Part shown: one piece after another, positions 19,756-20,664 of the stretch
Layout of the letters: each line of letters starts with the position of its first letter
How positions within the stretch are numbered: the stretch's first letter is position 1
Source of the DNA: Enterobacteriaceae bacterium 89
GTDB taxonomy: Bacteria > Pseudomonadota > Gammaproteobacteria > Enterobacterales > Enterobacteriaceae
Direction: 5' to 3'
Length of the DNA stretch: 64,000 bases
NCBI GenBank assembly: GCA_014156375.1
Contig: RQJH01000007.1
Location: forward strand, 1 to 64,000
Notes under the pieces: model-generated
What the model was told of the DNA's origin: nothing
What the model saw: only the letters and a program-made list of their open reading frames with translations
Database searches by the model: none
Made by a program: the position numbers and the translations under genes

Positions 19756-20211
19756 CTATTTCCGCTCAATAAACGGCGTTTTCACTTGCTCCACCAGCAG
19801 ATACACCAGATCGTGAAGCAGCCCCGTCAGCTCGCGGTTCACCTCTTCATTTAAGGTGGCCCCTGAAACAGCCTGCACGAGACTTTTGGCATAATTCACC
19901 AGCATTTCTGTATCGTGCCAACAGTCCGGAACAGCGGATACGGGCAGGGTTTCCACCGTCAGCTGTTGCACCAGATAATCCGGCAAGTCTTCGGCACAGC
20001 ATTTTTCCAGCAGCGTTAAGGCGTGAGATAAACGCCCGCACAGCGCCAGTCGGTAGAACTCCTCTTCACATTCCACCATCACAGAAACAAAAGTGGCGCA
20101 GAGATCGGCAACGGTGAACAGATCGGCTTTTCCGGAAAGAGGGATGGCAAGCACTTCTTCGATTTGAGCCTGATATTCTTCAGGGTAAGTCCGGGTGGGG
20201 ATCGTAGCCAT
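19756..20211 (-). CDS. Uncharacterised 151-residue protein
   Basis: I do not recognise this gene; E. coli K-12 has nothing here. The product starts MATIPTRTYPEEYQ, is acidic and mostly helical in appearance, rich in Leu/Val, with four Cys (two adjacent in EKCCAED), no signal peptide and no clear membrane span. The ATG at 20211 has GGAGG 9-13 bases upstream. Reading could extend 32 codons further, but that part runs through the repeat-rich leader. It lies between dlhH (convergent) and metE (same strand, 458 bp away). The leader resembles satellite-phage immunity regions, so a remnant phage gene is an inference worth testing. Confidence 0.7.
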   Translation of the reverse strand: MATIPTRTYPEEYQAQIEEVLAIPLSGKADLFTVADLCATFVSVMVECEEEFYRLALCGRLSHALTLLEKCCAEDLPDYLVQQLTVETLPVSAVPDCWHDTEMLVNYAKSLVQAVSGATLNEEVNRELTGLLHDLVYLLVEQVKTPFIERK

Positions 20212-20220
20212 AAGGCAGCC

Positions 20221-20425
20221 TCCATGTATGTATCTTAGAAGCCACCGCCTGGAGTTCCTACGCTCACAGGTGGTGACGCTGACGGGGGTAGGAAACCGGC
20301 CATACATGGAAATCCGGTCAACCTTTCGGTTGCCCCGCCAACGTCACCATAGATTTTACTGAGATGTACGTCGGCCTGACACATAAAAATGCGTCACCAT
20401 GTATGTATTTCGGGTTCCTACGCCC
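20221..20425 (-). other. Leader with alternating complementary repeats, P4-immunity-like
   Basis: Three related blocks lie ahead of the 151-residue gene. On the plus strand the outer blocks carry CCATGTATG (20222-20230 and 20397-20405) and TTCCTAC (20255-20261 and 20415-20421). The middle block carries their complements, GTAGGAA (20288-20294) and CATACATGG (20301-20309). A local hairpin ACCTTTCGGT lies in 20321-20330. In a minus-strand transcript the middle block could pair with either flank, never both. This A-B-C layout is that of the phage P4 CI immunity RNA region, where such pairing controls termination. The assignment is by architecture, not by sequence search. Confidence 0.5.
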
Positions 20426-20569
20426 GACTGCGGGTTTGACCGCAGCCACATCACCCTATACCCGCACCATTTACAGGTAAAGCGATAAATAGCGTTGCAG
20501 AAGAGTTGCTTAAAATTTTGCGTAGCGCTTTCCAGAATTGGGCTGCAAGGCGGATTTGTTACATGAATT

Positions 20570-20664
20570 GCCTGATGCGCTGCGCTTATCAGGCCTACAA
20601 AACCAAACATCGTAGGTCCGGTAAGCGCAAGCGCCACCGGGCATTACAGGTTGCCCGGTGGCCG
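20570..20664. repeat. REP/BIME cluster
   Basis: Palindromic REP-type units in opposite orientation: GCCTGATGCGCTGCGCTTATC at 20570-20590 and flanking bases, and a mirrored unit at about 20611-20642. A perfect 11-bp inverted repeat GCCACCGGGCA/TGCCCGGTGGC (20632-20642 and 20652-20662) ends 7 bp after the metE stop. Such clusters stabilise or end transcripts and bind gyrase/IHF in enterics. Confidence 0.8.

Follow-up and report, generated by a model that had tools for sequence, protein, structure and literature searches.

The window, by which we mean the whole 64-kb stretch of DNA that was analysed, contains a C4 antisense RNA placed between a leader and a target site ahead of a gene of 151 amino acids. 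We consider, with a probability of about 0.7 for this explanation as a whole, that the switch belongs to a chromosomally dispersed family of C4/CI-type switches and is not a lone relic, and that each C4 would silence its own gene, as in the immunity of P1 and P4. The computed parts of this explanation are the identity of the C4 RNA, the pairing of its words, the near-orthogonality, the conservation and the LexA-type box. The elements of the switch in the window are as follows.

20397 to 20459, minus strand: leader, with the words b1 GTAGGAA (20421-20415) and a1 ATACATGG (20404-20397), from the word pattern search
20266 to 20354, minus strand: C4 antisense RNA, with b' TTCCTAC (20294-20288) and a' CCATGTATG (20309-20301), from RF01695 and the fold
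20222 to 20261, minus strand: target, with the words b2 GTAGGAA (20261-20255) and a2 ATACATGG (20229-20222), from the word pattern search
19756 to 20211 (stop included), minus strand: family gene of 151 aa, putatively C4-controlled, from the open reading frame and family alignments

The word pattern GTAGGAA-N(5-26)-ATACATGG matches three times in the 64-kb window, at 20397-20421 (minus), 20288-20309 (plus) and 20222-20261 (minus), with the middle copy on the opposite strand. No match to this two-word pattern was obtained in 100 dinucleotide shuffles of the window. Therefore, the alternating complementary words that an earlier, sequence-only reading of 20221-20425 had described in three blocks are present where that reading placed them. 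The word a2 of the target overlaps the Shine-Dalgarno sequence GGAGG at 20223-20219 ahead of the 151-aa gene, and 10 bases separate the end of the target at 20222 from the start of this gene.

When the whole window was searched, 20266-20354 (minus strand) matched the Rfam C4 model RF01695 with 70.9 bits against a cut-off of 45 (E 8.6e-12), so that the covariance search suggested along with the sequence-only reading came out in its favour. The a' and b' loops are complementary to two target sites, as befits a member of RF01695, and the order of upstream site, RNA and downstream site is that of the P4 CI immunity region (seqA-CI-seqC). The P4 CI-like architecture proposed earlier is thereby upheld, together with membership of the C4/CI family. 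The 89-nt C4 stretch folds with a z-score of −5.34, better than 200 of 200 shuffles, and the 266-nt leftward stretch from leader to target with a z-score of −5.60. In the minimum-energy fold of the latter, all nine a' bases and all seven b' bases are paired with the upstream block, while b2 is unpaired and GGAGG lies in a short local hairpin. Since a' and b' are bound to the leader in this fold and are complementary to the target too, a choice between leader and target is plausible. It had been proposed that the middle block pairs with either flank but not with both; the upstream pairing is predicted by the fold, the downstream complementarity is plain, and the choice arises because the words of leader and target are identical.

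The leader reached 37.1 bits at 20407-20459 with the Rfam model c4-a1b1 (RF03163), below the cut-off of 46.7. No promoter was called in a scan ahead of the leader, and no terminator was called in a scan of the window. A hairpin followed by a T-run was found in 36 of the 68 leaders of the module set defined below, the window leader not being among them. A weak promoter-like match (9 of 12 letters, chance expectation 0.7 in the region) is found between leader and C4 at 20382-20353, so C4 might have a promoter of its own.

As to the mechanism, we infer the promoter, the RNase P cut, the translational block, the action in trans and the function of the protein. A leftward transcript, started from a putative promoter, would span the leader (b1, a1), the C4 RNA, the target (b2, a2) and the gene, and RNase P, by analogy with P1, would release C4 as a stable RNA. 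As in P1/P7, the a' and b' loops of C4 might bind the target words a2 and b2, where the ribosome-binding site lies, and turn translation off, and the protein would normally be off. In the alternative state the loops would bind the leader words a1 and b1, and this pairing may serve to titrate the RNA or to control read-through. Having its own two-word address, each module would thus silence itself and an incoming copy with the same address, and hardly its paralogues. An RNase P-cut RNA that blocks translation is described for P1/P7 in PMC5320573, and the action in trans is taken from PMC8546580.

The switch shares with the C4 of P1/P7 (c4-icd-ant; RF01695, targets RF03163) the three-stem fold, the a' and b' loops and the two target sites, one of which lies at the ribosome-binding site (for the P1/P7 mechanism, see PMC5320573). 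In contrast to P1/P7, C4 is found here outside a phage, a single chromosome has ten copies that differ in address, and the downstream icd and ant of the P1 c4-icd-ant operon were not found (no homology to the one Icd-like protein compared, no Pfam family). Unlike the P4 CI region, the window switch has no kil/eta-type phage genes behind it; a gene with no Pfam or PHROGs match follows, and then a dienelactone hydrolase gene (Pfam) on the other strand. Neither is a termination mechanism such as that of P4 CI evident in the window switch. According to PMC10111431, relatives of CI and seqA are picked up by the Rfam profiles for C4 and isrK. An isrK-like leader (43.1 bits at 20385-20446, below the cut-off of 50), followed by a further RNA of the same transcript and a gene, resembles the arrangement of IsrK/STnc1160 in the Salmonella prophage Gifsy-1 (PMC4825925), although the gene is a different one and the window module lies, as far as seen, outside a prophage. 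One genome with many C4-like RNAs that differ in their a' loops is also that of Acinetobacter baumannii AB5075, whose Group 1 C4-like sRNAs (PMC5320573) are the closest precedent. For these, two antisense sRNAs are proposed, together with unknown targets in host or phage; a cognate gene family with matched sites is not named in the text covered.

In the genome that contains the window (own genome), a covariance search found ten C4 RNAs above the RF01695 cut-off. All ten share the same layout, with a homologous gene of 144-153 aa starting 48-55 nt after the C4, and the ten modules carry ten different word pairs, made up of ten a words and seven b words. A three-stem fold is common to the ten RNAs (97.5% of cells paired). 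Of its 28 pairs, 12 have two-sided changes, where shuffling gave a mean of 4.5, the consensus structure being derived from the same ten sequences; these compensatory stem changes among the genome's own copies support the C4/CI-type architecture. The neighbours of the ten modules look like ordinary genes, among them metE (database match) and ysgA, lsrG, rhlE, fumC and glyS (names judged from sequence), and no integrase or transposase was seen by eye beside the modules. REP/BIME-like repeats, also judged by eye, flank several modules (window 20560-20660, and the L014 and glyS loci of the own genome), at two sites on both sides of the module; they might serve recombination that moves modules. In the insertion at the fumC site (locus L016), a gene of 543 aa, whose start is PAAR-like by eye, lies 377-2009 bases upstream of C4 on the opposite strand.

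For the 151-aa protein of the window, no family below E 0.05 was found in Pfam, PHROGs, NCBIfam or PADLOC, and three other copies of the protein family had no match in Pfam or PHROGs. Six helices are predicted, with a mean AlphaFold2 pLDDT of 82.1. A fold comparison yielded just generic helical bundles, with no match at E <= 0.001 in the PDB or in viral models, and gave no clue to the function; a PDB sequence search gave a single match at E 1, which was not used. Homology to one E. coli Icd-like protein was likewise rejected, as the family profile gave a probability of 1.3% over 9 aligned columns against it. The dN/dS values of 11 chosen pairs of the family (0.06-0.31, rough in the six pairs whose dS exceeds 1) point to purifying selection.

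A paralogue of the family is located upstream of the convergent mrp in all seven genomes of the genus (mrp identified by motif). It is preceded by a GNAT-type gene (four of four tested by motif, the rest by eye), and no C4 match was found beside it in the genus genomes. At 44-46 nt before the start of this paralogue there is a LexA-type box with 15-18 of 20 letters in 7 of 7 genus genomes. When 96 family members were scanned, at least 13 letters were reached in four mrp-side genes and in one weak distant match, the other three mrp-side loci having been scanned apart from this set; none of 20000 random windows of 200 nt reached 15 letters. A search of the own genome with the LexA pattern, up to two mismatches being allowed, gave 26 strand matches, two of which (both strands) are the mrp-side box, against one for the reversed pattern. 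Among four related genes in two other genera, the LexA-type box was found in two and the mrp motif in three; the other two, mrp-side paralogues of another genus, are without the box.

Some family genes stand apart from both arrangements. One gene of the own genome without a C4 match (C3:1692553-1692945, minus strand) has the leader word GAGAACC, and the complement GGTTCTC of this word covers, by eye, the ribosome-binding site, as if the switch had shrunk to a cis hairpin. Two main-type genes of another genome (G001; L030 and L044) have a leader and no C4 match; it is possible that the RNA was deleted and the gene kept.

The gene icd is C4-controlled and acts against the host, and sulA is LexA-controlled. 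Our best guess, by analogy, is that the C4-controlled protein would restrain growth or cell division, because its paralogue bears a LexA-type box and because icd and kil, the genes known to be controlled by C4 or CI, work against their host; kil, which is under CI control in P4, is described as 'cell killing' in PMC10111431. This functional half of the explanation may be stated alone, as a toxin with an RNA antitoxin: C4 would hold a growth inhibitor off, and when phage or stress stops transcription C4 would fall and the inhibitor would be made, leading to abortive infection or stress arrest. In 45 of 47 addresses antisense words lie at the ribosome-binding site, which argues for such a toxin, as do the LexA-type box of the paralogue and two of seven E. 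coli contexts beside defence-type genes (NACHT/HEPN in one; AbiE plus type I restriction in the other). However, type I toxins are small membrane proteins, usually under 60 aa, a description that does not fit a protein of 151 aa with six predicted helices. In addition, the window protein has no PADLOC family, and up to 13 matches of the protein family per genome (fragments included) might not be allowed by a strong toxin. Stated alone, a toxin held off by its RNA seems possible, though short of probable.

For the preferred explanation, in which each C4 would silence its own gene, the specificity of the addresses was computed as pairing energies. In the 10 x 10 comparison of C4 with target in the own genome, the cognate partner was best in 9 of 10 rows and in 10 of 10 columns (mean −23.9 for cognate against −14.4 kcal/mol), and the window C4 with the window target was the best of ten in both row and column. 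With the leaders, the cognate was best in 9 of 10 rows and 9 of 10 columns (−22.4 against −15.4 kcal/mol). The C4 of the L017 copy fits the target of the L003 copy (label L028) marginally better than its own, and with the leader of the lsr copy it pairs better than the cognate RNA of that leader. For the fumC-site C4, the leader of the L010 copy (label L042) is a marginally better partner than its own. Single words discriminate less among the own targets, a being best or tied in 7 of 10 rows and b in 5 of 10. The C4 RNAs and their targets are nearly orthogonal within the genome, but the orthogonality is partial, and neither word alone suffices.

The C4 model search was extended to the window and 81 of 196 loci, the ten own C4 matching by construction. 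It gave 73 C4 matches, from which four duplicates and one second match at locus L183, with no start codon behind it, were removed to leave 68 modules. These contain 47 different word pairs and 38 a' words. Over the 47 addresses, the cognate target had −22.81 against −14.47 (sd 0.45) for random partners, and all four sites matched in 46 of the 47, compared with 8.5% for mismatched partners (mean over 21 permutations). In 45 of the 47, the word a2 overlaps a Shine-Dalgarno-like word, eight generously chosen words being accepted as such. Across genomes, the cognate target was strictly best in 26 of 47 rows and best or tied in 32.

Changes between C4 RNAs at the metE site concentrate in the address columns (6 of 20 against 2 of 68, p 0.0015; in a further comparison, 9 of 22 against 4 of 68, p 0.00027), but such an excess was not found in three glyS-site pairs or in the lsr-side pair (p 0.31-1). 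At an orthologous locus near lsr in two genomes, most 60-base windows of the flanks and the coding region are 92-100% alike, the exceptions being two windows at 82 and 83%, whereas similarity falls to 61-85% in the four windows that cover leader, C4 and target, and both words are changed at all three places. The leader-C4-target stretch thus looks as if it had been exchanged between near-identical surroundings at this locus. It could be that the modules are selfish or domesticated immunity units, whose C4 would act mainly in trans against incoming modules of the same address and whose addresses would diversify like phage immunity groups. This agrees with the ten different addresses in one genome, the 47 addresses among 68 modules, the apparent exchange and the concentration of changes at the metE site. 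The glyS-site pairs and the lsr-side pair count against it, and no viral stretch with the three tested addresses carried C4; we regard it as rather unlikely.

Alternatively, the C4 RNAs may regulate host mRNAs in trans, a role that has been put forward for the Group 1 RNAs of A. baumannii (PMC5320573) and that is in keeping with the diversity of the a' loops, for which the 68 modules have 38 words. Nearly every module, however, has its own matched sites (46 of 47 addresses), so that the diversity of a' is explained without host targets, and regulation of host mRNAs seems improbable.

Within the genus, 29 of 34 C4 above the cut-off in seven genomes adjoin a family gene, one of these a fragment (count from coordinates). 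At the metE-ysgA site, three of the seven genomes have the module, one has the leader only, one has another gene pair and two are empty. In genome G004 (L088 2422-3010, minus strand), HTH_3 and Gp49-like genes, a toxin-antitoxin-like pair, stand at this site, where the C4 module is found in relatives. The metE search gave matches in 86 of 119 genomes, and 30 loci were fetched; no family gene was found at the metE site in 28 loci from other genera, ysgA being out of reach in 11 of them. The C4 scan took the 24 of 35 metE loci with ysgA in reach, of which three were positive. An exact empty site for an insertion is given by comparison of the L014 locus with L117, and no target duplication or terminal repeats were seen there by eye.

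The sequence-only reading had considered a phage relic or a decoy against P4-like satellites. Nine further modules, the low dN/dS and the fact that three of seven genus genomes share a module at one site argue for a kept module and give no support to a decaying relic. The decoy found no support when viral contigs were searched with the words of three own-genome addresses, since none of 59 viral-contig stretches had a C4, which is weak negative evidence. For 20212-20470 a single phage match was obtained, over 41% of that stretch. A P4-like satellite remnant that was retained as a block to satellites of this type would agree with membership of the C4/CI family and with the b word GTAGGAA, common to the C4 of the E. 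coli Icd-like satellite-type locus L019, but the a word differs from that of L019, the ten modules are paralogous, the dN/dS of the gene is low and no phage or viral stretch was found with the full address and C4, so that we think it the least probable reading of all.

In a wider sample of the bacterial family, the protein-family profile matched in 82 of 295 genomes and 45 of 154 genera, and C4 RNA was found in 142 of the 295, some of which have up to 14 C4; 14 control genomes had none. Since C4 is commoner than the gene, and outside the genus is not tied to it, many C4 elsewhere serve other genes. Among 5426 complete E. coli genomes, 1088 have a match to one E. coli-type module that covers at least 80% of the query. 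In all seven E. coli contexts of the gene that were inspected, integrase genes, tRNA genes, IS elements, Rhs or defence-type genes are found nearby, which sets these contexts apart from those of the ten own copies. Phage records gave one protein-family match, in a 1.5-kb fragment, and the family occurs in seven plasmid records, three of them larger than 1 Mb. Viral contigs gave 34 protein-family loci, of which 14 were scanned and one (L124) has a C4.

In the text covered from PMC2864571, PMC5320573, PMC4825925, PMC10111431 and PMC8546580, no report was met of the protein family, of a LexA-type box ahead of one of its genes or of C4 addresses with matched sites, subscription literature lying mostly outside this scope. 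Within the literature covered, three features appear to be new, namely the gene family matched to C4, the private addresses that come with sites of their own, and the paralogue with the LexA-type box. Phage immunity RNAs are usually read as a prophage property; here many diversified copies of the switch stand beside core genes, and in this genus it is tied to one protein family with no curated model in the libraries scanned. The ten near-orthogonal RNA regulators form a natural set in one cell, and the system makes it possible to ask directly why a single protein family has two modes of control, one by C4 and one by a LexA-type box. As a tentative idea, itself on the unlikely side, it might be an enterobacterial chromosomal analogue of phage immunity groups, with a LexA-controlled gene beside mrp and C4-controlled copies whose private, cassette-exchangeable addresses would silence their own kind, incoming copies included.

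Two minor observations concern homologues elsewhere. The viral-contig homologues L125-L157 show 31-38% identity, and none of the 13 scanned has a C4; they lie behind a divergent gene that is Arc-like by eye in the few inspected, and perhaps represent a third control mode. One of them, L147, lies near a stretch that matches P2-type phages at ogr, and a PHROGs search of L147 and L124 gave no match. Finally, genes annotated as ash family or Icd-like overlap C4 RNA in L022 (8125-8283) and L019 (3836-4366). Pfam Phage_ASH (PF10554) matches part of these genes where they are read through the C4 RNA, and part of the Phage_ASH family may be a translated RNA gene.
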